IMG/VR virus record: IMGVR_UViG_3300036846_000055
Coordinates: 1-23,511 of that record
Source of the DNA: a virus
Direction: 5' to 3' (one strand)
Length of the DNA stretch: 23,511 bases
Shown in pieces: positions 602 to 18,667 of this stretch (position 1 is its first letter; each line of letters begins with the position of its first letter). Under the pieces are notes generated by a model, which saw only the letters and a program-made list of their open reading frames with translations, had not been told where the DNA came from and did not search any database. Position numbers and translations under genes: made by a program.

Positions 602-1477
602 TCAGTACTCGTCCGGCTCAGCACCTTGCTGAGCTTCGATTGCTACTGGCCCATCCTCAACGATCTCAGCGTCAACGATGTCTGAATGGGCCTCCTCGCG
701 CGTGCGAACGTTGTCGCCAATGGCCTTGCCCTTGTTGATCAACTCCTCAACTTGCGGGATCGTGATGTCGTCCATGAAGTTGCCCAGAACACCATAACGA
801 TCTTTGGCCTTGTATGGGCCCATGGACTGGAAGATGACTCGTCTGATCAGGCGCTTCTTGCCCTCCTCATTGAGATTCCGCTTCACGCCATGGCCGACAA
901 CATGCATGTAACCCATCGCTTGCTGAGCGATGCCACCTTGCTTGCCGTCGAGTGCGGGCAGGAAGTAGGGGTTGCCTTCAGCATCTTCCAGCCGCAACGG
1001 CAGCGCAGTGTACACACAGTTGATCGGCAGATCGTTGAAGCGTCGCAGGAAGTTCAGCGTTTGTTGCTGGACCTTGAGGTGATCCTGGATCTGCGGCACG
1101 TCTGGATCGGCATTCTTCTTGCTTGCCTCATACGCCGTGCGCAGCGCGTTATCCATGCTGAACTTCTGCATCTCAGTGATGCTGTCTAGCAACGCCCATT
1201 GGTAGTCATCACAGCCGGTGCCTTGTCGGAAGTAGTTGTAGGCTTTGGTGACATCGCCCCATGACTTCATGGGCCAGACATCAGCTGTGCTTCCTTGTCG
1301 CGCAGCTGAGATGGTTCCAGCCTCTGTGGCCAAGAACAGTGCCTTGGGGCCACCAGATCTTCGCTGGTCTGCTGTCCCGCAAAGCACTGTCTTGCCCCAG
1401 CCAGGCTCAGCGACGAGCATCATGTTGATGAACTCGTCATACGCTTCCAGACTGATTACTGCCTCAGGCAGAGGCAC
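602..1477 (-). CDS. Sak4-like RecA-fold ATPase (AAA_24 type), phage recombinase
   Basis: A 291-residue P-loop ATPase. The Walker A motif EPGWGKT is at residues 24-30, followed by a RecA-like core with a Walker B-like strand ALLDSI (95-100). The C-terminus is acidic. Phage Sak4 proteins are single-domain RecA/Rad51-type ATPases that help anneal single strands with an SSB. The adjacent downstream SSB-like gene and the upstream Cas4/RecB-like nuclease fit that role. The GTG at 1477 is preferred because GGAGG sits 6 bases before it; the in-frame ATG at 1483 directly abuts the GGAGG and would be poorly placed. The start overlaps the end of the preceding 59-residue gene by 14 bases. Family call is good; the precise biochemical role is inferred. 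Confidence 0.8.
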   Translation of the reverse strand: MPLPEAVISLEAYDEFINMMLVAEPGWGKTVLCGTADQRRSGGPKALFLATEAGTISAARQGSTADVWPMKSWGDVTKAYNYFRQGTGCDDYQWALLDSITEMQKFSMDNALRTAYEASKKNADPDVPQIQDHLKVQQQTLNFLRRFNDLPINCVYTALPLRLEDAEGNPYFLPALDGKQGGIAQQAMGYMHVVGHGVKRNLNEEGKKRLIRRVIFQSMGPYKAKDRYGVLGNFMDDITIPQVEELINKGKAIGDNVRTREEAHSDIVDAEIVEDGPVAIEAQQGAEPDEY

Positions 1478-1643
1478 GCTCATCCTCCATTGGGTCTAGA
1501 TCCTTCAGTCGCTCCTCAATCTCACTGAGGCGCATGTTGATGAAGAAGAAGTCATCCCAGCTGAGCGCACCAAGGCCATAGTCTCTTGAGAAGCGCTTGC
1601 GCAGACGGCTCAACTCGGCCAATCCCCTGGTTCTGCTCGCCAT
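1464..1643 (-). CDS. Small hypothetical protein (59 aa)
   Basis: Starts at ATG 1641-1643 with a GGAGG 8 bases upstream; the ATG at 1658 lies before that ribosome binding site and is unlikely. The protein is rich in Arg/Lys at the N-terminus (MASRTRGLAELSRLRKRF) and ends in an acidic helix (EIEERLKDLDPMEDE), so it is probably helical. I do not recognise the family. It lies between the nuclease and the Sak4-like ATPase, overlapping the latter by 14 bases, which suggests translational coupling and perhaps an accessory role in the same recombination module (inference). Confidence 0.72.
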   Translation of the reverse strand: MASRTRGLAELSRLRKRFSRDYGLGALSWDDFFFINMRLSEIEERLKDLDPMEDERASA

Positions 1644-1658
1644 GTCTATCACCTCCAT

Positions 1659-2639
1659 TCAGGCGCTCTTGAGTGCTAGTCGATGATCCTGATATGGATC
1701 ACGAACATTGAACATGGCGTCCCTGAACTCCTGCCAGTCGTCACCCGACTCATGCAGCTGACACATCTGGAAGAAGGCACAATCCCGGGAACAATCTTTG
1801 GTTGGTGTCTTGGTTGGGCGCTGTTGCTTGTTGCGGATCGCCATCATCTGATTGGCTTCATCGATGACGTGCTGACGCTGCATGATTCGCTGACTGTCTG
1901 AGCGCCAGACTGGGTAGCGCATGAACCGTGGTGTGCTCTGGTTCTTGCTCACCGTGCCGTTCTTGTTGAGATAGCGCCCAAACTCATCCTGCGGCCTGTC
2001 GTCAGGCATCGCTTTGCGTAGGAAGTTGTACATGATCCCATCGATGCGATCACTCTCAGCCAGCAAGCCTTGGTGCTTGAGCGTTGTCTCCGCCATCATA
2101 AGGTAACTGCTGGCTTGATCGTCAAGCTCCAGATAGCCGGTGTTGGGCAGGCTGGCCGCCGTCTTGTTCTCAAGCAGCCAGCACGAGTCCTCATGCTCTG
2201 TGTCGTGGAACACACCATCGAACGTTGCCGTGTAGATGATCACACCGTCAGGTGACGTAATCTTGGCCTGGACCGGCTGCTCTGTTCCCGCAAAGTCCCA
2301 CGTTGGATCAGTGCCATATTCCTCAACGTAGCTGTACAACATGTTGGCGCCAAGTGTGAGCGCATCAACCCACTCAGGCTCATCTGGCTCAACACCCTTG
2401 GTCTTGAGGAAGTGCTTCTCATCGTTGCACCACTTGGTCCATGTCGTGACTGGGTGAACGCCACGCTCAACACCGTGTTTGTACCACTCAGCCAGAGCAG
2501 CGTGAATGCCCTGGCCGAACCAGAGTTTGGTGTCTGTCCGTTTCGGCTCCAGGCCCATGCGCCAGCCCCACCACCACCGTTGCTGGCATCGCTTGAAAGA
2601 CACGCGCTCTGTCGTGCGCAGGATGATCTGCCCGGTCAT
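1659..2639 (-). CDS. PD-(D/E)XK exonuclease, Cas4/RecB-like with cysteine (Fe-S type) cluster
   Basis: A 326-residue nuclease. The catalytic signature is visible: a GxxxH-type FGQGIH (41-46), Asp141 in TFDG, Glu157-x-Lys159 (LLENK), and QxxxY at Gln175-Tyr179. One cysteine near the N-terminus (Cys18, RCQQRWWW) and three near the C-terminus (Cys283, 287, 293) match the split four-cysteine pattern that holds a 4Fe-4S cluster in Cas4 and AddB-like nucleases. The likely role is resection of DNA ends to give single strands for the Sak4/SSB pair encoded downstream. The start ATG 2639 overlaps the previous stop as ATGA and has GGAG 6 bases upstream; the ATG at 2651 lacks a good site. No cas1/cas2 or CRISPR array is near, so a CRISPR role is not suggested. 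Confidence 0.85.
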   Translation of the reverse strand: MTGQIILRTTERVSFKRCQQRWWWGWRMGLEPKRTDTKLWFGQGIHAALAEWYKHGVERGVHPVTTWTKWCNDEKHFLKTKGVEPDEPEWVDALTLGANMLYSYVEEYGTDPTWDFAGTEQPVQAKITSPDGVIIYTATFDGVFHDTEHEDSCWLLENKTAASLPNTGYLELDDQASSYLMMAETTLKHQGLLAESDRIDGIMYNFLRKAMPDDRPQDEFGRYLNKNGTVSKNQSTPRFMRYPVWRSDSQRIMQRQHVIDEANQMMAIRNKQQRPTKTPTKDCSRDCAFFQMCQLHESGDDWQEFRDAMFNVRDPYQDHRLALKSA

Positions 2640-2845
2640 GTCTGACTCCATCCTGCGAAGCTCTCGCGTGATCGATTGTGAGATTCCTTGATGTGCTGCG
2701 CCATGTCCTGGAACAGCCGCCAGGCGGGCGCACCACCAGTGAAGTCGCCCCAGATTGCACCGCAGCTGTGGCAGTACAGCTTGAAGTTGCCGTTGCGCTT
2801 GTGGAGCACTTCGATGTGCTCGTATGGGTTGTAGTTGAAGCTCAT
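2636..2845 (-). CDS. Small C2H2-like zinc finger protein (69 aa)
   Basis: Starts at ATG 2843-2845 (MSFNYNPYEH). It carries one Cys-x2-Cys pair (CHSC, residues 25-28) and a His-x4-His pair (HIKESH) about 25 residues later, a spacing compatible with one C2H2-type zinc finger. The start overlaps the stop of an 8-codon leader ORF (ATGA), and the good Shine-Dalgarno sequence belongs to that leader, so translation of this gene probably depends on it. The gene ends in an ATGA overlap with the nuclease gene. It may bind DNA or act as a regulator; the exact function is unknown. The frame stays open upstream to 2908, but that extension would cover the 22-bp repeat and the leader, so I reject it. Confidence 0.72.
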   Translation of the reverse strand: MSFNYNPYEHIEVLHKRNGNFKLYCHSCGAIWGDFTGGAPAWRLFQDMAQHIKESHNRSRESFAGWSQT

Positions 2846-2868
2846 CCTGTCTGGATCGCCTTTGTCAT
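2842..2868 (-). CDS. Leader peptide ORF (8 aa) with strong RBS
   Basis: ATG 2866-2868 is followed by seven sense codons (peptide MTKAIQTG) and a TGA that overlaps the ATG of the zinc finger gene. An ideal AAGGAGG lies at 2877-2883, 8 bases before this ATG. The downstream gene has no comparable site of its own. This arrangement suggests a translational-coupling leader or attenuation-type control. It could instead be a chance ATG, with ribosomes re-initiating a few bases later. Confidence 0.45.
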   Translation of the reverse strand: MTKAIQTG

Positions 2869-2882
2869 TGGTGTTTCCTCCT

Positions 2883-2904
2883 TGTCTGCCTTTCCTATAG
2901 ACAA
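2883..2904. promoter_or_regulatory. 22-bp control site, copy A (partner at 9128-9149)
   Basis: On the plus strand it reads TGTCTGCCTT, then T, then CCTATAGACAA. A 21/22 identical copy in opposite orientation lies at 9128-9149. The element is partly symmetrical (TGTCT ... AGACA), as expected for a site bound by a dimeric regulator. It lies directly upstream of the Shine-Dalgarno of the leader ORF, in the only sizeable non-coding gap (2909-2993 plus this site) of the left operon. Function as operator or promoter element is inferred. Confidence 0.5.
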
Positions 2905-2993
2905 ACATACTCCGCGAAGATCTCGCTCAGGTCTCGCTGGCGTAACGATCCGATAAAGATCTTGGACTGATCGACTGCTGGCCTGAATCACAG

Positions 2994-3263
2994 TTACAGA
3001 TCAATTTCGATCTTCCAATGGGTTGGTGGCTGGAGTGCAACAAGCACGTCATGCATGCCTTGGATGGCTCCAGCATCCTCAATGTGCCAGCCTGTCCAAT
3101 CGTTCCCTCCGGCCGTGGTCACATGATACAACTTGTGGCCAGACACAGAGTCTGCCGTGCGTTTGAGAATCTCAAGCATCATGCTCTCATGCTTGGTCTC
3201 CACATCACCGTGACAAACGATCATGCGTGGCTTTGGGAGCAGCGTTTCAGGTACTGGCAACAT
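2994..3263 (-). CDS. Hypothetical protein (89 aa)
   Basis: Starts at ATG 3261-3263 with GGAGG 7 bases upstream, which sits inside the 3' end of the sulfotransferase gene (17-base overlap). The sequence has a compact mixed composition with a GNDWTGWHIED segment near residue 53 and a hydrophobic C-terminus ending KIEIDL. No catalytic motif or membrane segment is evident and I do not recognise the family. It is the last gene before the non-coding gap holding control site A, so it may close one transcription unit. Confidence 0.7.
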   Translation of the reverse strand: MLPVPETLLPKPRMIVCHGDVETKHESMMLEILKRTADSVSGHKLYHVTTAGGNDWTGWHIEDAGAIQGMHDVLVALQPPTHWKIEIDL

Positions 3264-3888
3264 CGAGTGGCCTCCAGGTTGATGGATCGATCAAGTCATA
3301 GTCGAATGAACGGCAGTCGTCTTCACACCAGATGCGATTGGCAATCTCTACCTCACGCTGGTCATACAGCGATGCCCACGTTGGGTGCTTGCCGATGTTG
3401 CTATGATGATCGTATGTTGGGTACAGTCCATACAGGACACCGAAGTTCTGCCAGTTGTCCCACATGTGCTCCATCATCAGCGTGCGGTCTGGCTTCGCAA
3501 TCTCCGCACACTGCGTGAGCGACTTGGTCCACATGTGTGGAGCACGTCCTTGGATCCAGAGCCGGTGTTCCACCAACTCGCGTTGAGCTTCAAACCATGG
3601 TAGGAACTGACTGAAGTTCTGGTGCATGACGTAGCGATGGCCCCACTGAGACTTGCTGTTACCGATGTAGCCCAGGTACCACCACACTGAAACCAGTCTG
3701 CTGTAAGGGTTTCGCACCAGCATGTAACGTGTCTCTGGCGCAGACATCCAGACTGGTGGCGTCAACTTGTGCCGCGGCTTCACCCACTGCACCTCTGCTG
3801 GGTATTTCCGCATGGCTGCTTCCCAGCTGAAGGTGCCGGTCTTGGTTGGTGTGAAGATGATGAAGTCATGGATCTCACTTACCAACAT
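3247..3888 (-). CDS. Sulfotransferase-fold protein
   Basis: A 213-residue protein with both PAPS-binding hallmarks of sulfotransferases: the 5'-phosphosulfate loop PTKTGTFS at residues 14-21 after a hydrophobic strand (FIIFT), and the 3'-phosphate-binding motif RNPYSRLVS at 59-67. The C-terminal WCEDDCRSFDYD resembles the terminal acidic-aromatic segment of carbohydrate sulfotransferases. The family transfers sulfate from PAPS to a hydroxyl or amine, often on sugars; the substrate here cannot be told. There is no signal peptide, so it should act in the cytoplasm. ATG 3888 shares one base with the previous stop (TGATG); an ATG at 3924 would overlap the upstream gene by 37 bases. Uncommon cargo for a tailed phage. 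Confidence 0.8.
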   Translation of the reverse strand: MLVSEIHDFIIFTPTKTGTFSWEAAMRKYPAEVQWVKPRHKLTPPVWMSAPETRYMLVRNPYSRLVSVWWYLGYIGNSKSQWGHRYVMHQNFSQFLPWFEAQRELVEHRLWIQGRAPHMWTKSLTQCAEIAKPDRTLMMEHMWDNWQNFGVLYGLYPTYDHHSNIGKHPTWASLYDQREVEIANRIWCEDDCRSFDYDLIDPSTWRPLDVAST

Positions 3889-4085
3889 CAGTCCTCGTCC
3901 CCAGCAAAGATTGCATCCCAGCATGGGCTGCAGATGCCCGTCATCATCTGCTCACGCTTAGCAGCACTCAATTCTGGCAAGGCGCCCTGGATGTGCACGC
4001 CTTGGCGCCATTTCTTCAGGCCCTCATCATTGACCGCAAATGTGTCGGGCTTGCCACACTCTGGGCAATGCGTCTGAACTAACAC
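3888..4085 (-). CDS. Small zinc-ribbon-like protein (65 aa)
   Basis: Starts at GTG 4083-4085 with GGAGG 4 bases upstream; the start lies inside the stop region of the 57-residue gene before it (7-base overlap). Two Cys-x2-Cys pairs, CPEC near residue 7 and CSPC near residue 52, frame a helical middle (LKKWRQG ... LSAAKREQMMTGI). This is a one-zinc ribbon layout seen in small conserved phage proteins of unknown role. Its position between the helicase-side small genes and the sulfotransferase gives no firm function. Confidence 0.78.
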   Translation of the reverse strand: MLVQTHCPECGKPDTFAVNDEGLKKWRQGVHIQGALPELSAAKREQMMTGICSPCWDAIFAGDED

Positions 4086-4252
4086 TCATCCTCCAAATTG
4101 TCGATCTTGTATCCTGCGCGCCAGCATCGATACGTGATGTGGACGTGCCGCTGGTACGGTGAGATCCAGTAGGCATTCTCATCGTCCAGCGCACGCTTCA
4201 CACGATCATCACACCGTGATGCCTCGTCGGCTAATGTTTGATTTTTGTTCAT
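4079..4252 (-). CDS. Small hypothetical protein (57 aa)
   Basis: Read directly from the minus strand: ATG 4250-4252 overlaps the helicase stop as ATGA, the frame runs 57 codons and ends TAG at 4079-4081, overlapping the next gene. The protein starts MNKNQTLADEASRCDD and has an aromatic centre (ENAYWISPYQRHVHITYRCW) followed by a short acidic tail. It is soluble, with no recognisable motif. The tight coupling on both sides is the main argument that it is translated. Confidence 0.7.
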   Translation of the reverse strand: MNKNQTLADEASRCDDRVKRALDDENAYWISPYQRHVHITYRCWRAGYKIDNLEDEC

Positions 4253-6081
4253 GCCACCGCCATCGTGCGGGCTAGGTCAACGCCGCGCCTGCCGTCAAGC
4301 AGCATGTCCGTGATGCTTCGCTTCCCCTCAGTCACACGCTTGATGTACTCATCGATGGACTGATTGGTGATCAGCTGGTAGATCATCACCTGGTGAATTC
4401 TGGACACCCTGTGAATCCGGTCTTCCAGCTGGAGTTGATCGTCAGGGACCCATGTCTCATCGATAATGATCAACTCATCGCAGAACGCATCGAGCGTGAT
4501 CGACACACCGCCTGCCTTGGTGTTCATCAGCAGGACGCGCGGCCCACCAGCCGCCTGGAACGTGTCGGTGACGACAACACGCTCTGATTCCCTTACCTGG
4601 CCGGTGATTTTCATGTGCTCGACGTTGATGCTGTCGAGATAGTCACCCAGGCTGTTGATCACCTCAGTGAACTGGGACGCGATGACGATCTTGTCCTCAC
4701 CCTGTCGATCATCGCCTGCGATGCCTCGCTCAATCAGCATCTGCTCGATCACCGCAGCCTTGCACGAGTGCTCTGGCCACATGATCGCTGCCGGCTTGCT
4801 GCCTCGCATATTCCATGAGCAGTTTGCCATCTGCTTGAGCCGAGTCATGATCGCAAGCACACCGACTGCCGACAGCTCTTCATCACCCAGCTCAGCCATT
4901 GCCTGCTCAGACATCTGCTTGTACATCTTCTCCTGCACAGGCGTCATGTCACAGAACACCTCGATGTGCTGCTTGGGCGGCAGGTCAGCCACAACCTCGC
5001 CCTTGGTGCGTCGCAACATGATCTTGTCGAGTGACCTGTACAGATCATCCTCACGATCACGCCTGATGTCACCGAGAACAAACGCGCTGTACCTGTTGCT
5101 ACTGACGTGGAAGTACTGACGTGCCCAGCCGTAGAACGATGTGTACTCATGCGGCCGCAACCAGTGAAGTGTTCCCCACAAGTTGCTTGGCCTGCCACGC
5201 AACGGCGTCCCGCTGAGAGCGATTCTGACTCCACCATCACGCAGCTTCAGCTTCAGCATCGCTGCGCCTGTCTTGGTACGGTTCTGCGCTGACCGAATGC
5301 CGCCGAGATACTTGTGACTCTCGTCAACGATGATCGCGTTCCACTCAACTTCAAGCAACAGACCGAACTTCTTTTCAGCATCGCGGACCATCTCAGGGTT
5401 CACGATCAAGAAGTGCGGCCGCATGCCATCCGTTTCAGCATAGGTATCCAGCCACTTGTCAATGCGAGTCATCCGTGCCGATGCGCCATGAGCCCATGGC
5501 GGCACCGCCACCGTGACGACAGCGTCTGGTGCCCACTTGGCCAGCTCACGCTCCCACACCGTGCGGAGTGAGGTGAGTGGTGCGACGACCAGCACCGGGC
5601 CAACCCAACACCCAGCCTCCATCAAACCACCGATGGCTTCGAGTGTTTTACCCAGTCCGGGCTCATCAGCGATGAGCACCTCACGACCCTTGGCGATGAA
5701 CTTGGCACCGACACGCTGATACCTGCGTCGTCCCATTGCCTCAGCCAGCACTGGCGACTTCTGGTTCACCGCCTCCAGCTCAGCGTCATCGGCCTGGGTG
5801 AGTGCACGCATCTCATCCTCAAGCTGCTTTGCGTCTCTGGCCCAGTCATTCAGCTTGCGACCAATCACCAGTCGCTGACCGAATGAGCGCCGTAGCATCT
5901 TGCAACTGTCGAGTGAGAGTGCGTACTTCCACACCTTGTTCTTGGCATCCCACTTGCCGCCAGACCACCGATACCACGATGGATCTTGTGGGTTGTACTC
6001 TGACTTGGCCTGAATGACACCGTCGATCAACTCGATCCTGATCTTGGGCTTCTCAGGCTCATGCTCCTGTTCTGCTTCCAT
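4249..6081 (-). CDS. SNF2-family DEAD/DEAH helicase with HARP-like N-terminus
   Basis: A 610-residue superfamily 2 helicase/translocase. Motif I DEPGLGKT is at 139-146, motif II DESH at 253-256, motif III LSGTP at 289-293, the SNF2 landmark MLRRTK at 355-360, and motifs V-VI at about 519-561, ending QLEDRIHRVSR. The segment 29-75 (YNPQDPSWYRWSGGKWD... then KMLRRSFG) resembles the HARP-like DNA-annealing domain found before such helicases in SMARCAL1 and phage relatives. It probably remodels forks or anneals strands during phage replication. The start ATG 6081 has GGAGG 10 bases upstream. The frame is open further, to 6291, but that would overlap the preceding gene. It ends in an ATGA overlap with the next small gene. 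Confidence 0.9.
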   Translation of the reverse strand: MEAEQEHEPEKPKIRIELIDGVIQAKSEYNPQDPSWYRWSGGKWDAKNKVWKYALSLDSCKMLRRSFGQRLVIGRKLNDWARDAKQLEDEMRALTQADDAELEAVNQKSPVLAEAMGRRRYQRVGAKFIAKGREVLIADEPGLGKTLEAIGGLMEAGCWVGPVLVVAPLTSLRTVWERELAKWAPDAVVTVAVPPWAHGASARMTRIDKWLDTYAETDGMRPHFLIVNPEMVRDAEKKFGLLLEVEWNAIIVDESHKYLGGIRSAQNRTKTGAAMLKLKLRDGGVRIALSGTPLRGRPSNLWGTLHWLRPHEYTSFYGWARQYFHVSSNRYSAFVLGDIRRDREDDLYRSLDKIMLRRTKGEVVADLPPKQHIEVFCDMTPVQEKMYKQMSEQAMAELGDEELSAVGVLAIMTRLKQMANCSWNMRGSKPAAIMWPEHSCKAAVIEQMLIERGIAGDDRQGEDKIVIASQFTEVINSLGDYLDSINVEHMKITGQVRESERVVVTDTFQAAGGPRVLLMNTKAGGVSITLDAFCDELIIIDETWVPDDQLQLEDRIHRVSRIHQVMIYQLITNQSIDEYIKRVTEGKRSITDMLLDGRRGVDLARTMAVA

Positions 6082-6128
6082 GTTTTTGACACCTCCATTC
6101 TCTGTCACCCTCACGGACGTGAGGTGAA

Positions 6129-6157
6129 TGGCCAGGACACTCAGCCCTTCCTGGCCA
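6129..6157 (-). terminator. Stem-loop after the 110-aa gene (possible terminator or attenuator)
   Basis: A perfect 9-bp inverted repeat, TGGCCAGGA and TCCTGGCCA with an 11-base loop, begins 7 bases after the stop of the gene ending at 6164 and precedes the helicase start by about 48 bases. No T-run follows on the minus strand, so full termination is uncertain; it may tune expression of the helicase. Confidence 0.4.
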
Positions 6158-6163
6158 ATCATC

Positions 6164-6496
6164 TCAATCCGTTGGTGCCTGAACCCGCACGTCGCTGCCG
6201 ACTGCCTCGACCTTGATGATCGAGTCATCACCCAGCGATGTCGTGCCGGCCTCTGGCCGCAGCGAGAATTGCAGCTCAGTGAGCTGCTCATTCACGCCGA
6301 TGTACGTGGCGACCATCGTGCGTGGTTTCCTTTGCACACCGGCGATCTGAAACGTGACGCGATACCGCGTGCCGACACGCATGTGATCGGCAAGCAGCTG
6401 AATCCCTGACCGACCCTTTCTCACATAGTTGGAACACGACATCTCAGCGCAGTGAGTCGTTGAGCCGTACAGCCGATGCCCGCAGATGGCAGTCAT
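6164..6496 (-). CDS. Hypothetical protein with N-terminal Cys/His cluster (110 aa)
   Basis: Starts at ATG 6494-6496, sharing one base with the previous stop; a GTG three bases upstream is also possible. The N-terminus carries Cys6, His8, Cys17 and Cys22 (CGHRL ... HCAEMSC), which could bind one metal ion. The rest looks like a small beta-rich domain (TRYRVTFQIAGV, TMVATYIGV, TELQFSL, IIKVEAV). The family is not recognised. It sits in the run of small cysteine-bearing genes between the DUF6011-like gene and the helicase. Confidence 0.72.
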   Translation of the reverse strand: MTAICGHRLYGSTTHCAEMSCSNYVRKGRSGIQLLADHMRVGTRYRVTFQIAGVQRKPRTMVATYIGVNEQLTELQFSLRPEAGTTSLGDDSIIKVEAVGSDVRVQAPTD

Positions 6497-8748: not shown

Positions 8749-9068
8749 CGCACACTCTCCGAGAGTGTCGCGTGGGTTCCCCACCGGACGATGACGACTG
8801 GCGCCAACGCACCGATGGTGAGCCGCTTGCCGTCCTGGTTGATGAACCCAACCCTGGCGGCACTCTTGGCGATGAATCGCTCTGCGATGTAGTCAGTGGC
8901 CACCTCACCGGTGTCACCGATCTTGCAGAGCAGCACGTCGCCAGGACGCAAGTCCTGCGGACGAGCACCCCACACCTGCCAGAATCCCATCGTGCCAGGT
9001 TCCTTGGCGGGCATGGTCTCGACGGCAGCGACGGCCGCATGGCCAGTCGGCTGTTCCGTGTCGATCAT
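8745..9068 (-). CDS. Hypothetical protein (107 aa)
   Basis: Starts at ATG 9066-9068 with GGAGAG 6 bases upstream; an ATG at 9098 is possible but has no such site. The N-terminus is Ala-rich and flexible (TGHAAVAAVETMPAKEPG), followed by a small beta-rich domain with LRPGDVLLCKIG and a Val-rich strand (APVVIVRW). No family recognised. It is the first gene after a 230-base non-coding stretch with control site B, so it likely heads the left operon. Confidence 0.7.
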   Translation of the reverse strand: MIDTEQPTGHAAVAAVETMPAKEPGTMGFWQVWGARPQDLRPGDVLLCKIGDTGEVATDYIAERFIAKSAARVGFINQDGKRLTIGALAPVVIVRWGTHATLSESVR

Positions 9069-9246
9069 CTCATTCTCTCCATTCTCTATCGGAAACATCG
9101 GGAAGTGGCCCCCGACCCTTGTCTGTCTTGTCTATAGGCAAGGCAGACAGGGCACTCGGTGCCGAATCACAACGGGAGAATTCACAGCTGAAAATCACAG
9201 ATAGAGGGTGACCTATCACACATAAGACATCAGACACACAAGTGAA
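9069..9246. promoter_or_regulatory. Intergenic region likely holding the left-operon promoter
   Basis: No gene fits here. The stretch lies between a strong terminator hairpin (9247-9282) and the start of the left operon, and includes the 22-bp element at 9128-9149. A TATAGA hexamer inside that element could act as a minus-strand -10, but no good -35 stands 17 bases upstream, so I do not assign a sigma-70 promoter. Confidence 0.4.
9128..9149. promoter_or_regulatory. 22-bp control site, copy B (partner at 2883-2904)
   Basis: Reads TTGTCTATAGG, C, AAGGCAGACA on the plus strand, the reverse complement of copy A with a single mismatch. Flanking bases extend the symmetry (CTGTCT before, AGACAG at the end). 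It lies 60-81 bases before the start of the 107-residue gene. Its repetition 6.2 kb away upstream of another gene points to a specific protein-binding site. Confidence 0.5.
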
Positions 9247-9282
9247 AATGAAAGGTGCGGATTTGCACCCGCACCTTTCATT
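9247..9282 (-). terminator. Strong terminator hairpin after the coiled-coil gene
   Basis: A perfect 14-bp stem, AATGAAAGGTGCGG and CCGCACCTTTCATT, with an 8-base loop that reads GTGCAAAT on the minus strand. It starts 17 bases after the stop at 9300 and is followed on the minus strand by TTCACTT, a weak T-rich tail. Position and strength fit a transcription terminator for the gene ending at 9300. Confidence 0.75.
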
Positions 9283-9299
9283 CGCACCGGGATCAGCCG

Positions 9300-9785
9300 T
9301 TAGAACTCGGCATCGTCATCCGTGACGTCATCACTTTCGTCATCGGAATCGGCATTTGCCTCAGCCAGCATTGCCTCCAGCTTGGCAATTCGCTCAGCCG
9401 CACGCTTTTCGGCAGCAATGGCAGCTTCGAGTGCCTTTGCCTTTTCTTCTGGCGTCTTGGTGGCAAGTGCCTCGATTGAACGCTGTGATTTGCGCTCTTC
9501 ACTTTCGGCCGCCACCTGGTCGCGAATCTCTGTGTATTCCTCTGACTTGCGGTAAAGGGGACCGTAAGTGCCCTGAACAACGCGCAGAGTGTCAACGTCG
9601 ATGTCGAAACCGTGCTGATCCTTGATCCACTGGACAAAGCCAGTCTGCTTTGCAGAAGGCTTGCGATCCAGCAATTGCTGAATCTTGTCCTTGGGAGTGA
9701 CTGGTGCTTTCTCAGTCACTTCCGCTGTGGTTTCCGCCGCATTCTCAGCGACGGGAGCCTCAGCTGTCTTTGTGGATTCGGTCAT
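9300..9785 (-). CDS. Acidic coiled-coil protein (161 aa), function unknown
   Basis: Starts at ATG 9783-9785 with GGAGG 7 bases upstream. Layout: an Ala/Glu/Thr-rich flexible N-terminus (about 1-35), a compact segment (KIQQLLDRKPSAKQTGFVQW to LYRKSEEY, about 36-85) that may be a small DNA- or protein-binding domain, a long Ala/Glu/Lys coiled coil (about 90-145), and a strongly acidic tail ending DDVTDDDAEF. Own terminator, long hairpin-filled leader and strong ribosome binding site suggest a separately controlled, perhaps abundant product. It could be nucleoid-associated or scaffold-like; I cannot decide. Confidence 0.75.
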   Translation of the reverse strand: MTESTKTAEAPVAENAAETTAEVTEKAPVTPKDKIQQLLDRKPSAKQTGFVQWIKDQHGFDIDVDTLRVVQGTYGPLYRKSEEYTEIRDQVAAESEERKSQRSIEALATKTPEEKAKALEAAIAAEKRAAERIAKLEAMLAEANADSDDESDDVTDDDAEF

Positions 9786-11104: not shown

Positions 11105-11623
11105 TCACGCCACGCAGGTGTGAATCGTGAACGTCTCACTCTTGATCTTCAGCGTCAGGTTGCGCAGATGAAAGCCGGCAGGGCACGTCATTGATTGACC
11201 TGGTGAGCCTCTCTCACCACGAGCACCACGCTGCCCAGTCTTGCCTCTTGGTCCCATGGGGCCCTGCAGCCCAGCTGGTCCACGATCACCAGCTTGTCCT
11301 GACGCTCCAGCCCGTCCTGCTCTGCCAGCTGGTCCAGTGGTGCCATTCTTGCCTTGCTGTCCAGACTTGCCGTGCGGGCCTGAGGCACCGGCAGAACCTG
11401 GCGCACCATGGCTGCCACTTGGGCCAGCAGCACCAACCGGACCTTGTGAGCCAATGGGACCACGCGAACCTGGTGGCCCCTGTGGTCCTGGTGGCCCTGG
11501 ACCACTAGCGTTGGATGCACCAGCGATGAGCAAGATGATCGTGATGACAATGAAGGCGCCAGACAAGATGAACGCGATCGTTGGTGATCGAAAGACACGT
11601 CGCACCAGCTCAGTCGGCCCCAT
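11105..11623 (-). CDS. Membrane-anchored collagen-like protein (172 aa)
   Basis: The N-terminus is basic (LVRRVFRS) and is followed by one strong membrane segment at about residues 14-36 (TIAFILSGAFIVITIILLIA). Residues 41-142 are an almost unbroken Gly-X-Y collagen-like stretch, and the last 29 residues form a small domain with two cysteines (Cys147, Cys170) that may pair. Expected topology: short N-terminus inside, collagen stalk and cap outside. It overlaps the holin-like gene by 14 bases and is the last late gene. I chose ATG 11623 (GGGA 6 bases upstream); ATG 11635 is also possible. Role unknown: lysis control, envelope disruption or surface modification are all open. Confidence 0.75.
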   Translation of the reverse strand: MGPTELVRRVFRSPTIAFILSGAFIVITIILLIAGASNASGPGPPGPQGPPGSRGPIGSQGPVGAAGPSGSHGAPGSAGASGPHGKSGQQGKNGTTGPAGRAGRAGASGQAGDRGPAGLQGPMGPRGKTGQRGARGERGSPGQSMTCPAGFHLRNLTLKIKSETFTIHTCVA

Positions 11624-11843
11624 TGTCGATCCCATGCTGTGCTAGCTTGAGTCGCAGTGCATACACCTGACGCTCGCAAGCGATGCGAGCTTCACGCTCT
11701 TGGGACAGCATGATCGACAGTGAGTTCACCTCACCAGTCGATGCCTTACGCTCCTTGTCCCGCACGGATCTGATGGCGAGCATGATTCCACCGGCAGCCG
11801 TGATGATTGCGGCCAGTGCCGTGAAGATGGCCGCAAGTTCCAC
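11610..11843 (-). CDS. Holin-like small membrane protein (77 aa)
   Basis: Starts at GTG 11841-11843 with GGAGG 8 bases upstream. One hydrophobic segment (about residues 2-25, ELAAIFTALAAIITAAGGIM) is followed by a charged, coiled-coil-like tail (RDKERKASTGEV ... QEREARIACERQVYAL). Size, topology and position 27 bases after the endolysin gene fit a small one-segment holin or a holin-associated membrane protein. Sequence alone cannot prove pore formation. The frame can be extended to GTG 11858 but that start precedes the ribosome binding site. Confidence 0.68.
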   Translation of the reverse strand: MELAAIFTALAAIITAAGGIMLAIRSVRDKERKASTGEVNSLSIMLSQEREARIACERQVYALRLKLAQHGIDNGAD

Positions 11844-13770: not shown

Positions 13771-14652
13771 TCAACCAATCCGTACAAACTGCATTCGATG
13801 GCCCGACGGTATCGGAGACAGTGCAAGCGCAGCACCGCTGCTTTGCCAGACACGGCAGTCAATGACATCACCAGCCGTAGCACGGTAAATGTGCTGACAT
13901 TGCACTGCGGAGTTGCCACCCGAGCCGACATCCATACGGTTAGCCTCAGTGTTGTTGATGAAGACAGCGGTGACTCGTCGCCCGCTAGTATTGGAGACCC
14001 AGCCCATCTGGAAATTGATCAGCAGCAGCGCGCCATCGTTGGCGGCATTGACGGATAACGCACCAGGCGCAGTTAGACCTAGGCTGCCAATAGGAGTCCC
14101 GCCTGGGGTAGCCCAAGCACCGAACGGCCCGTTCCACCCAAGGTTGGTGATGCTGGTGACTTGCTGCCCGGTGTGTTCCTGAAAGATGTTTGCCGGCCAT
14201 GGCGATGGCGTCATACTGCCAAGGCTGTAGCCAGACCTGATCCGCAGGTTGGTGCCATCACCCTCAAGAGTGCAAGCAGCCCATTGGCCAACCATCAGCA
14301 AGTTAGGGTCACCATCAACCGTGCCAGACGATGGCACCACAGTCAATGTGTTAGTTGAGCTGTCCACACGCTTGACTACATAGGTGTTGTTGCTGGTGAT
14401 TGGTGCCGTGAGTGTGATGTTGCCACCACTACAGTCTACAAGCGCGATGTCACCATTGTTGAGCGTCGCGTTGGTTGTAATAGACCTGATCGTTTCACCA
14501 GTGCCACCACCTGACGGCCATGGATTCCAGGCAGAGCCGTCAGACACATACAACGTCTTGGTGGCCGTGTTCCAGTACGTGTCGCCAGCGTTGCCAACTG
14601 CTGGTGCCGCAGCGTACGGTGCTGCGTTCGTGATTCCAAAGCTGCGCGGCAT
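13771..14652 (-). CDS. Tail fibre / minor tail protein (293 aa)
   Basis: The N-terminus holds a GDTYWNTATKTLYVSDGSAW module (about residues 23-42) of the kind found repeatedly in phage fibres. A beta-rich middle follows (NATLNNGDIALVDCSGGNITLTAP), and the C-terminal 120 residues resemble a C1q/TNF-like head domain (GALLLINFQMGWVSNTSGRR ... MQFVRIG). This layout fits a trimeric adsorption protein. ATG 14650-14652 shares one base with the stop of the nuclease gene. Family assignment is by pattern; receptor unknown. Confidence 0.75.
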   Translation of the reverse strand: MPRSFGITNAAPYAAAPAVGNAGDTYWNTATKTLYVSDGSAWNPWPSGGGTGETIRSITTNATLNNGDIALVDCSGGNITLTAPITSNNTYVVKRVDSSTNTLTVVPSSGTVDGDPNLLMVGQWAACTLEGDGTNLRIRSGYSLGSMTPSPWPANIFQEHTGQQVTSITNLGWNGPFGAWATPGGTPIGSLGLTAPGALSVNAANDGALLLINFQMGWVSNTSGRRVTAVFINNTEANRMDVGSGGNSAVQCQHIYRATAGDVIDCRVWQSSGAALALSPIPSGHRMQFVRIG

Positions 14653-15359
14653 CAGAACCTCGCTGTGTAGACGGCGCGATGATCGGTGGCCCTGGTGAAG
14701 ATGCGCTGATAGCTGCTCAATGATCGTTCTGGCACAGCAAACGCGGCATCGATCCGTGGAAGTCCAGATGAGCGACGTAGCCTGGTGTGGTTGACAATGC
14801 CAGGATGCTTCTGGTTCCAGTCACCAGCGATGACGATATGTGCCAATGGATGCGCGTTGATGTAGGCTTCCTCGATAGCCACATCAGCTGCTCGCCAGCG
14901 TCCCTGGTGCGGGTGCTTAGCCGTGCTGGCAGTGTTGTGAACAGCGATCAGCCTGACGTATCGATGGGTGACTCGATCGATGAGTCTGACGATGGGGATG
15001 CGCCAGCGATGTCCGTTGAAGTACGGCACCACGAGCGAGGAATGAGCAGCAAGGTGATATGCGGATCTTCGCCAGAACACGACGTTGGGTCCATTGTGGG
15101 CCAAGCTGAATGCTCCACCGGTGTCGGCCAGGAATGCTCGCCGTTGACTGCGTTCGCACTCAACCAGCGTACCCAGGTCAGCGTGCTGTCGCTCGATGAT
15201 GTGGGCAATGCTCGCCATCCTGATGATTGCGCTGGCTGTCCCGGTGTGACTGGCACCCTGCACGTTGGCCCAGAACAGAGTGCGGGTGATCGGTGCATCC
15301 GCGTTGGCCGGTGGGACAAGTAACATCCACGTCAACGTGAGTGCCCAGCAGCGTCGCAT
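14652..15359 (-). CDS. Secreted DNase I-fold (endonuclease/exonuclease/phosphatase family) protein
   Basis: Residues 1-20 form a classical signal peptide: RR, a hydrophobic core (WALTLTWMLLV) and an ANA cleavage site. The rest has the full set of EEP catalytic motifs: Asn32 (WANVQG), Glu68 (TLVECE), His141 (IAVHN), Asp180-x-Asn182 (AGDWN), Asp204 (PRIDAAF) and Asp226-His227 (TDHRAV). EEP enzymes cut DNA, RNA or phosphate esters with Mg2+. ATG 15359 follows the previous stop by one base; the TTG at 15368 would add three residues before the signal peptide. A secreted nuclease inside a tail-fibre operon is unusual; it may act outside the cell or in the envelope. Confidence 0.82.
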   Translation of the reverse strand: MRRCWALTLTWMLLVPPANADAPITRTLFWANVQGASHTGTASAIIRMASIAHIIERQHADLGTLVECERSQRRAFLADTGGAFSLAHNGPNVVFWRRSAYHLAAHSSLVVPYFNGHRWRIPIVRLIDRVTHRYVRLIAVHNTASTAKHPHQGRWRAADVAIEEAYINAHPLAHIVIAGDWNQKHPGIVNHTRLRRSSGLPRIDAAFAVPERSLSSYQRIFTRATDHRAVYTARF

Positions 15360-15360
15360 G

Positions 15361-16695
15361 TCAGCCAACGATCACAACTCTGTAGCCTGCGCCCAGGTTG
15401 GGGTTGTATCTGATCGTGGCCGTGGTAGCTGATGTCGCATCCCAGTCCACCTCCACTGCTGTGTAAGGTGATGCGCCGTTCAACACCGTGAGCTGGATGT
15501 CTCGTGTGTTCAAGTTATGGGTGACGACTTCAGGTGACGCCGTGCCGGCCAACGCTGCTGCGAACTTCTTGGGCATGCCAGCAATGGCACTGTTGACGAA
15601 CGCTTGCGTGGCGATCACAGCAGTGTTGACAGCGATGGAGTCAGCAGCGACCGTGAGTGTGGTGTCAGCAGCGACAGCATCGATGGTATTGCCGGTCTTG
15701 GTCAGGCCGGCACCAGCGATGACTTGCCCTGCGCCGCTGAATTGAACCCATGTGATGGCCGTGGTATCAAGCGTTCCACCTTGATCGCTTGTGCAGACCC
15801 AGCCCGTGTCAGCGTTGACGGTGCCCTGCTCAACAAAGGTGAACGCTGAAGGCACAAGCGTCCATTGGTTCATATCGCCAGAACGTTGCCATGTGCCGTT
15901 TGCACCACTGCCCAGCGTGCCGACCGTGTAAATGCCGTTTTGAGCTGGCGCTGTTTGATCCTTTACAAGCACCCGGTCGTTGACTGCGAGCGCAACACCA
16001 TCTAGCGTGTTTGGCGTGCCACCAGCTAGCGTGATGTTGGCACCGACAGTTGCGGCGTGGACAGACTGCTTGGCGTCCAGGCCTTGTGCAACACTGTCAG
16101 CATAGCCCTTGGTTGCAGCATCGTTCGACAACGTTGGCGTCATGAGTCCCGTGATCTTGTGGGTGTTCATGGCGACATCAGTTGTCGTTGGATGTGCGCT
16201 CGCAAGTGCACCAAGATCGAATGCTGTGGCTGTGTCAGCAACAACGACAGTGCCGTCGAGAATCTTGGCTGAAGTCACTGTGCCATTTGCGATGACTGGG
16301 TTCGGATATGTGCTGCCTGCTAGATCGCCACCCGCAGCACCGTTTGGTGGCAAGGCAGTTGGGATCACACCAGCAGCGATGTCAACAGCCTGAACGGTGC
16401 CATCCGCGATCTTCGCACTGGTGACAGCGTTGGGCGCAATGACTGGCGCCGTTGCCGTGCCAGCAAGATCACCGGCTAGCTGAATGGTACCAAGAGCGCT
16501 TGCTGTCGCAGGTGGTGTTGAGCCGCTCATCGCGCTCTGCCACGTGGTGCCGTCATACCACTTGAGGATGTTGTTGGTGGAGTCAAACCACAGCAAACCC
16601 TTTGTGGGACTCGATGGCGCGGCACCCAAGTTCTGAACTACAGCGTTGCGCAGCTCATTCTTGCCAAGATCGACTGCACCATAGAACACTGGCAT
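15361..16695 (-). CDS. Tail fibre protein (444 aa)
   Basis: ATG 16693-16695 has AAGGGA 5 bases upstream. The N-terminus begins with MPVFYGAVDLGKNELRNA and then a LLWFDSTNNILKWYDGTTW module. The middle has repeated short beta units around NG-T-V-T-S-A-K-I (two copies, VTSAKIADGTV and VTSAKILDGTV), typical of fibre shafts. The C-terminal segment EVVTHNLNTRDIQLTVL to VVIVG matches the terminal modules of the collagen-like fibre upstream. This points to a long trimeric fibre that carries the same end domain as its neighbour. Receptor specificity is unknown. Confidence 0.82.
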   Translation of the reverse strand: MPVFYGAVDLGKNELRNAVVQNLGAAPSSPTKGLLWFDSTNNILKWYDGTTWQSAMSGSTPPATASALGTIQLAGDLAGTATAPVIAPNAVTSAKIADGTVQAVDIAAGVIPTALPPNGAAGGDLAGSTYPNPVIANGTVTSAKILDGTVVVADTATAFDLGALASAHPTTTDVAMNTHKITGLMTPTLSNDAATKGYADSVAQGLDAKQSVHAATVGANITLAGGTPNTLDGVALAVNDRVLVKDQTAPAQNGIYTVGTLGSGANGTWQRSGDMNQWTLVPSAFTFVEQGTVNADTGWVCTSDQGGTLDTTAITWVQFSGAGQVIAGAGLTKTGNTIDAVAADTTLTVAADSIAVNTAVIATQAFVNSAIAGMPKKFAAALAGTASPEVVTHNLNTRDIQLTVLNGASPYTAVEVDWDATSATTATIRYNPNLGAGYRVVIVG

Positions 16696-16705
16696 GGCTG
16701 TCCCT

Positions 16706-18667
16706 TCAGCTCAGGTATGCCTCGCCACCAACAGACGCTGAGAACGTCAGTGTCACGTTATTGTCATCTGGATAGTGAACGTTGCCTGGGAAGATCTCAT
16801 CAAACGTGGAGTCCACGACCGTGACACCTGGTCTGAAGCCAAGGTTATGCGGCACGCTCCAGGTCGTTGCCGCAGCGGTCTGGTAGTGTCTGTAGTAGCT
16901 AGCAGCGGCAGCCCCTGATGGCGGGATACCAGCACCGACCACGACATTGACATCATTGGGTGGCTTGGCGTTGAAGCTCACCCAAAGATTGTTCGCATCG
17001 ACAGCTGCAATCTCACCTTGGATGAGCCCATTGGTGACAGCATCCCATAGCTGCACAAGCGGGTGCGGGCTGTTGAGGTTGTGGGTGATCGTGTAGATGG
17101 TGCCTGCGTTCGGTGCCAAAAGCCTTTGAACATAGGATGATCCTGCTGGCCCAGGTGCGCCTGGAGCACCGTCAGCACCAGCTGGGCCCTGGATTGTACC
17201 AAGATCGAACCACTGCGAGCCATCCCAGTAGTACAGATGGCCGGTATCTTGCGTCACCCAGCCCTGTCCCGCATCCGCTGGGCCCAATGGCGGCAGTTGG
17301 CCAAACGTTGGCACCGTGCCATCGATCGTGACGCCTGCACCTGGCGGACCTGTTGGGCCTTCAGGCCCAGTCGGACCTGCTGGACCAGGATCACCAGTGT
17401 TGCCTTGTGGACCATCAGCGCCAGGTGGGCCTTGAACCGGACCACAGTCAACCCACGCTGTTCCACTCCATGACCACAGATGCCCTGTGTCACTGGTGAT
17501 CCAGCCCTTGCCAGCATCGGCAGCCGTCAAGCCTGTCGGCAGGTTGGCGTACGTGGCAACAGTGCCTATGATGGTGATGCCTTGGCCCATATCACCTTGT
17601 GGGCCAGGTGGTCCTGTTGGGCCTACATCGCCTTGTGGCCCCGCAGCACCAGTTTGTCCCGGATCACCCTGGGTGCCTTGAGCACCGGTCGCACCTGCTG
17701 GTCCTTGTGGTCCTGAGGCACCAGTTGGTCCTTGTGATCCTGTGGAACCTGTTGGTCCTGGCGGGCCAGTTGCACCATCAGTACCAGGCGGACCTTGTGG
17801 ACCAGCTGGACCCTCAGGACCAGCCGGTCCGATTTGACCACCACCAGAAACCATTGTCCATTGAGTGTCATAGTCATTGTCCGATGTCTTGACGAGACTC
17901 TCACCAGCGGTGCCACCTGCAGGGACACCAACGCCATCTGCACCCTGTGGACCTGCTGGGCCAGGACTCCCATTGATGCCAGCTGGACCAGTTTGACCTT
18001 GTGCACCGGGTGGCCCAGCGCTGCCCTGTGGTCCCGCAGGACCAGTCGAGCCAGCTGGACCTTGCGAACCTGTTGGCCCCTGGCTCCCAGTGGAACCAGT
18101 GGGACCGGCTGGACCCAATGGCCCTTGCACACCGCCGACTGGCCATACACCAAGGTTGACGTTTGATGGCGTCAAGTTCGCGCCGGTTGTCTGCCACAGT
18201 GAGATGGCATACAGCCTGCCACCATAGAGATAAACCGGGAAGATCACGGTGTCTAAATTGGTCGGCGCTGTGACGTTGCTTGAGACGTCAATCATGGCAT
18301 AGTTGGTGCCTGGCGACGTACCATGTTCAAGCAGTGTCGCTGCTCTGCGACCGCCAGATCCACCAGGCCATAAGGTTCGCAATGCTACCAGATACCAGCC
18401 ATCAACTTCTGGTGAAACAAAGTTGCCTGAAACTGCAACCTGCCCAACCGTGATGGTGTCCCAGTTTGTTACCTCCGTCCACAAACCTGACTTGATCGCC
18501 GGACATGACTGCGTCCAGAACACCGTGGGCGAGTTGGCTGGATCACTCGGATCAGCCGTGGCAGCAGTGCTTGCCGTGCGCTCCAACACGCCGATGCGGC
18601 GATCGAATGCCTTGAGCGCATCGATGGGGCTGCTTGGAAACTTGTCCAGGTAGTTGCTGCTGGTCAT
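16706..18667 (-). CDS. Collagen-like tail fibre protein (653 aa)
   Basis: Layout: N-terminal helix with heptad pattern (about 14-32), a C1q/TNF-like beta domain (about 45-178), collagen Gly-X-Y stretches at 181-246, 281-362 and shorter ones at 412-444 and 493-509. These are interrupted by two copies of a 47-residue module (about 363-410 and 445-492; GTV-x-T/P-x2 ... DTGHLW/YxW-x-G-x-x-W). The end has two related beta modules (about 521-580 and 600-653; ITHNL / VPHNLG). Gly-X-Y stretches in phage fibres form triple helices. ATG 18665-18667 with AGGGTGA upstream. Confidence 0.88.

Follow-up and report, generated by a model that had tools for sequence, protein, structure and literature searches.

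A divergent sulfotransferase-like gene among the DNA-metabolism genes of a phage

Phage sulfotransferases and the gene in the window

Phages from glacier ice and OM43 phages are reported to carry sulfotransferases as auxiliary metabolic genes (PMC8290583, PMC10580990); those of the OM43 phages are of the PF13469 type, and the role of these enzymes in phages is stated to be still unclear (PMC10580990). The enzymes of the Pfam Sulfotransfer_2 family (PF03567), the seed of which consists mostly of polysaccharide sulfotransferases, carry a lysine in the PAPS loop, within a strand-loop-helix element, and a PXXRXXS motif for the 3' phosphate on a strand-turn-helix element, with a His or Glu as the catalytic base on a loop that varies within the family (PMC11625862). 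In PF00685, the 3'-phosphate motif takes the form RXXXDXXXS, and in Stf0, Arg/Ala is described in the PAPS loop (PMC11625862).

We analyzed a stretch of viral DNA of 23,511 nucleotides (the window; positions 1 to 23,511 of IMG/VR virus record IMGVR_UViG_3300036846_000055) which encodes, on the minus strand, a protein that is a divergent addition to the already known phage sulfotransferases (Table 1). The original prediction, made from the letters of the window, described a phage-encoded protein of 213 residues with the sulfotransferase fold and both PAPS-binding motifs, encoded inside a DNA-metabolism operon. The phage origin and the location are as given there, and both motifs are present, PTKTGTFS at residues 14-21 and RNPYSRLVS at residues 59-67. 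The operon context holds as well: on the minus strand, an SNF2-type helicase gene is followed by a gene for a Cys-rich protein, the sulfotransferase-like gene, two small ORFs, a PD-(D/E)XK/Cas4-type exonuclease gene, a 64-aa ORF and a Sak4-like gene.

With Sulfotransfer_2, the window protein has in common the PAPS-loop lysine, the PxxRxxS motif, the spacing from K16 to P61/R64/S67, the conserved C-terminal D..F.Y and the predicted fold. It differs in that the loop reads TK, where most of the relatives have PK, in its length of about 213 aa vs. the 252 positions of the Pfam model, and in its score against that model (14.7 bits, E 0.033), which lies below the curated cutoff of 22; this cutoff is a limit of detection and not a biological trait. 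Given this subthreshold score, the protein would be placed only as a divergent relative of PF03567. The RXXXDXXXS form is absent, the segment being R59-N-P-Y-S63-R-L-V-S67 with S63 at the D position, and the presence of PxxRxxS instead supports the assignment to the polysaccharide family PF03567. In the PAPS loop, the protein has Lys and not the Arg/Ala described for Stf0.

Among individual phage proteins, gp5.1 of Roseobacter phage SIO1 (NC_002519, L090, 4688-5254, minus strand) is similar in size and is matched by both profile (E 1.3e-11) and structure. It comes from an unrelated podovirus, where the gene is located near a tail fiber gene, shows low identity to the window protein and contains ...RNPHDWIKS in place of RNPYSRLVS. 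SIO1 gp5.1 is annotated without a function. Proteins of the uncultured phages L081 (a 179-kb contig), L082 and L072/L042/L076 align with the window protein over most or all of its length, with 20-25% identity; they belong to other phages and other gene neighborhoods, and those of L072/L042/L076, unlike the window protein, score above the Pfam cutoff.

Table 1 Features of the sulfotransferase-like gene and its surroundings in the window
Feature	Coordinates	Strand	Basis
Sak4-like recombination ATPase	602..1483	minus	phrog_124 E 6.6e-38; about 65-72% to kin contigs
Cas4/PD-(D/E)XK exonuclease, downstream border of cargo interval	1659..2651	minus	PF12705; phrog_1218 E 3.4e-86; 48% to Streptomyces phage Yara
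90-aa ORF in helicase-exonuclease interval	2636..2908	minus	no Pfam/phrog family found
89-aa ORF overlapping the 3' end of the sulfotransferase-like gene	2994..3263	minus	no Pfam/phrog family found
Sulfotransferase-like gene	3247..3888	minus	ORF; subthreshold PF03567; profile match over the full length, 47.8-69 bits; PAPS sulfotransferases matched by the AF2 model
3'-phosphate motif RNPYSRLVS, PxxRxxS form (P61/R64/S67)	3688..3714	minus	alignment of 23 relatives
Candidate catalytic base His40, in a variable loop	3769..3771	minus	H in 13/23 aligned relatives; putative role
5' PAPS-loop motif PTKTGTFS	3826..3849	minus	sequence; K16 = expected PAPS-sulfate lysine
TGATG stop/start overlap, zinc-ribbon-like gene to sulfotransferase-like gene	3886..3890	minus	sequence
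Small Cys-rich (zinc-ribbon-like) protein, 65 aa	3888..4085	minus	phrog_20898 E 8.7e-12; weak zinc-ribbon Pfam matches
SNF2-type DNA helicase, upstream border of cargo interval	4249..6291	minus	PF00176 E 4e-34; phrog_62

Homology beyond the motifs and the predicted fold

A tblastn search with the window protein against 50,697 phage records produced no match even at E 10, a megablast search with the whole window found no phage match, a scan of viral contigs with the protein alone recovered no relative, and phmmer against the PDB sequences gave only chance-level matches. The same protein gave a single weak tblastn match among plasmids (E 0.8), labeled 'sulfotransferase family 2', and, among genome contigs, a single 26-residue segment in an Oscillospiraceae MAG that we did not count as a relative. 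Thus, a divergent phage sulfotransferase of this kind, missed by both the Pfam threshold and the tblastn search of phage records, escapes standard annotation.

Relatives were sought with DNA patterns for the motifs. The pattern for the 5' motif, TGTFxWExA, matched 30 loci that encode unrelated proteins wherever the translation was readable, with no related protein detected by phmmer, so that this motif alone is weak evidence. The pattern VRNPYxRLV..W matched 45 viral loci, and essentially all of the encoded proteins also contain an upstream PAPS-loop motif. All 23 members of the working alignment, the query included, match Sulfotransfer_2 at E<=0.1.

Because the RNPY pattern selects for one motif, similarity beyond that motif was tested with profiles. 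The stricter profile, built from 14 proteins found by the RNPY pattern alone, matches the window protein across residues 4-198 with 47.8 bits, compared to at most 33.8 bits for shuffled sequences that keep RNPY (n=500), 11.6 bits for full shuffles and 7.0 bits for about 2,000 other ORFs. With both motifs masked, this profile gives 11.0 bits, and 1 of the 500 shuffles scores higher. A profile of 22 proteins, a less independent test in that it includes proteins picked by their likeness to the query, yields 69.1 bits and, after masking of both motif regions, 19.8 bits, whereas no shuffle exceeds 10.9 bits and no other ORF 9.7. By these comparisons, the homology with phage sulfotransferases appears to extend over the full length of the protein, beyond the motifs. 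In the phylogenetic tree, the window protein forms a long end branch (3.85 changes per site) outside any supported group, and its nearest relative is not resolved.

The AlphaFold2 model obtained with the 23-sequence alignment reached a pLDDT of 83.5 and a pTM of 0.81. From the single sequence, the pLDDT was 33.9 with no usable fold, which makes the model dependent on the alignment provided. The elements of a PAPS site are predicted in it, namely, a strand-loop-helix (E9-12/H19-26) around K16 and a strand-turn-helix (E53-58/H61-77) around RNPYSRLVS. A Foldseek search of the PDB ranked sulfotransferases first, but with a best E value of 0.14 (none below 0.1). When the candidates were realigned, the best 50 matches listed were all PAPS sulfotransferases, headed by heparan-sulfate 6-O-sulfotransferase 5t03 (Z 10.2, 166 residues, 3.4 A) and followed by 2-O-sulfotransferase 3f5f (Z 9.7), the bacterial sulfotransferase 3rnl (Z 9.5) and SULT enzymes; the SULT-type small-molecule enzymes score near the carbohydrate ones, with Z from 9.5 to 8.4. 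The heparan-sulfate 6-O- and 2-O-sulfotransferases (PDB 5t03, 3f5f/4ndz), with Z of 9.6-10.2 over 166-172 residues, are the best structural matches, but they are eukaryotic and only 10-11% identical to the window protein. Production of the polymer on which they act is not known from bacteria of the presumed host kind. In BFVD, the high-probability matches are mostly named viral sulfotransferases, including proteins of giant viruses and phages, Roseobacter phage SIO1 gp5.1 and Ralstonia phage phiRSL1 among them.

A sulfotransferase fold of the window protein is thus supported by the model, and the original prediction of that fold withstood the structure comparison it had named. The comparison had been proposed against carbohydrate and Stf0-type enzymes: heparan-sulfate 6-O/2-O-type and SULT-type enzymes came out closest, and Stf0 does not appear among the matches listed, which proves nothing. 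A mismatch at the PAPS pocket, which would speak against the prediction, is not seen at the key residues, with K16, R59, R64 and S67 all in place. Within the alignment, the K16 position holds K in 19 of the 23 proteins and R in the other 4, R59, P61 and R64 are invariant (23/23, partly a consequence of the pattern by which most of the relatives were found), and S67 is conserved in 19/23. Judged from these residues, sulfotransferase activity is plausible.

A variable interval between helicase and exonuclease genes

The sulfotransferase-like gene is an uninterrupted frame of 213 codons for amino acids with an ATG at 3888; an alternative, longer version of 225 aa starts at ATG 3924. It has one base in common with the upstream zinc-ribbon-like ORF, in the TGATG overlap, and a GAGGA-type site is located directly upstream of the start, an arrangement that suggests translational coupling of the two genes. 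The GC3 of 0.68 is comparable to that of the adjacent genes, and on this basis we rejected recent acquisition from a source with a different base composition.

For both the exonuclease and the helicase, the closest sequences come from Streptomyces phages, among them Yara and Gibson (41-48% identity), with the homology of the helicase starting only at residue 111; judging by this alignment, the actual start of the helicase is probably downstream of 6291. The helicase-exonuclease-recombinase order recurs in phages of Streptomyces, Gordonia, Nocardia and Mycobacterium, and the helicase and exonuclease genes are also adjacent in an Arthrobacter phage. The virus is actinophage-like, with a probable actinobacterial host. 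Nearer kin are the uncultured contigs L101-L105, with about 65-72% identity for Sak4, 56% for the exonuclease and 53-57% for the helicase where covered. In these contigs, the helicase-exonuclease interval spans 2.3 to 4 kb and contains different small ORFs (for example, L104 2787-6787 and L105 3039-6591). A sulfotransferase profile search of 13 kin records, some of them fragments (six named actinophage genomes; L002, L003 and L101-L106), gave no match; the same profile recovers SIO1 gp5.1 (E 1.3e-11) as a positive control. Because the flanking genes are common to the kin and no sulfotransferase was detected in the kin records searched, this gene is cargo in a variable slot, either gained here or lost elsewhere. 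The interval in L101-L105 is itself a variable cargo slot worth mining.

Phage Sulfotransfer_2 genes found with the pattern often adjoin polysaccharide and nucleotide-sugar genes, namely, those for epimerases, RmlD, GDP-mannose dehydratase, pyruvyl transferase, NodZ and glycosyltransferases, families 11 and 92 among the latter. Around the closer relatives of the window protein (55 neighboring genes), glycan genes are rarer, with one epimerase, one polysaccharide deacetylase and one PIG-L deacetylase, whereas head, ligase and nucleotide genes are commoner than around typical members, a contrast drawn by inspection. In L081, deoxyribonucleotidase-like and AAA/kinase-like genes are found near the sulfotransferase-like gene; in L082 (3103-5926), this gene is located between a MuF-type head gene and phrog_760, near a portal gene. 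No glycan-related gene was recognized in the window. These neighborhoods suggest two settings for phage Sulfotransfer_2-like genes, one within glycan-synthesis clusters and the other as solitary cargo near replication or head genes.

Two of the contigs display further peculiarities. In L048, a single viral contig, sulfotransferase-like ORFs with VRNPY motifs occur twice within 8 kb (1993-2691 and 9037-9672), and the two differ from each other. In L081, an ORF resembling TonB-dependent receptors (1335-4646, 1103 aa) is found within a few kb of the sulfotransferase-like gene; this ORF is either an unusual gene of the phage or part of host DNA.

Possible acceptors and alternative readings

The reading we favor, with a probability of about 0.45, that is, somewhat short of even odds, is a PAPS-dependent, carbohydrate-type (Sulfotransfer_2-like) cytoplasmic sulfotransferase that is carried as accessory cargo and for which the most likely acceptor would be a host envelope glycan or its precursor. 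Phage cargo genes often change the host surface, and the family consists largely of polysaccharide enzymes; a glycan target is favored on these two grounds. The gene in the helicase-exonuclease slot would probably be expressed together with the replication genes. Host-supplied PAPS would lie across the K16 loop and the site formed by R59, R64 and S67. A hydroxyl or amine of the acceptor would lose its proton to His40, and the sulfo group would be transferred in a single in-line step. If the acceptor is an envelope glycan or its cytoplasmic precursor, infection would alter the cell surface.

No glycan gene is recognizable in the window, and several of the closer relatives are found among head or nucleotide-metabolism genes, so that the case for a glycan is borrowed from the more typical phage members of the family. 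A PAPS-dependent enzyme that acts on a protein or on a small molecule of the cytoplasm (a metabolite, nucleotide, signaling compound, or host or virion protein) is to be weighed next to it; such a target is nearly as likely as a glycan, and we consider it a tentative possibility. Apart from the absence of glycan genes nearby and the location of several closer relatives, such as L081 and L082, close to nucleotide-metabolism or head genes, it draws on the SULT-type enzymes that score so close to the carbohydrate ones in the structural comparison; however, the motif is of the polysaccharide-family form and not that of PF00685, and for a cargo gene, the neighborhood says little about function. Action of the solitary members on targets other than surface sugars would amount to a new strategy of phages; failing that, the gene is another surface-modifying cargo gene. 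It is improbable that the protein modifies nucleic acid, that is, phage DNA or RNA, in a base-modification or anti-restriction pathway. The gene does sit among helicase, exonuclease and Sak4 genes, and according to PMC10829341, which cites Iyer et al. 2013, there are reports of sulfotransferase-based nucleotide modification in phages, but no base-hypermodification enzyme or base glycosyltransferase was recognized in the scanned genes of the window, a fragment of 23.5 kb, and in a variable cargo slot, proximity to DNA genes means little. Slimmer still are the chances of a nucleotide-type target, be it the DNA/RNA of the phage or a nucleotide signal used by a system of host defense; if this were true, the protein would serve counter-defense or genome modification, through a chemistry for which phages offer no established example.

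The remaining readings question the enzyme itself. A sulfotransferase-fold protein that lacks transferase activity, such as a PAPS/PAP-binding or PAPS/PAP-hydrolyzing one or the product of a decaying gene, seems unlikely: the long end branch, the score below the Pfam cutoff, the replaced loop proline and the lack of His40 in some of the relatives would fit such a protein, but the open frame, the host-like GC3, the coupled start and the retention of K16, R59, R64 and S67 would not. That the motifs arose by chance in an unrelated, non-sulfotransferase protein is hardly credible, given the masked-motif and shuffle tests, the full-length alignment and the model, even though no database match exceeds a curated threshold and unrelated proteins also contain the 5' motif by itself.

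Other genes of the window also deserve mention. Within the tail-gene region, an ORF at 14652-15368 (minus strand) encodes an endonuclease/exonuclease/phosphatase domain (PF03372, E 6e-8) together with an apparent N-terminal hydrophobic stretch. Two proteins of the tail region, encoded at 16706-18667 and 11105-11635 (both minus strand), contain long collagen-like Gly-X-Y repeats.
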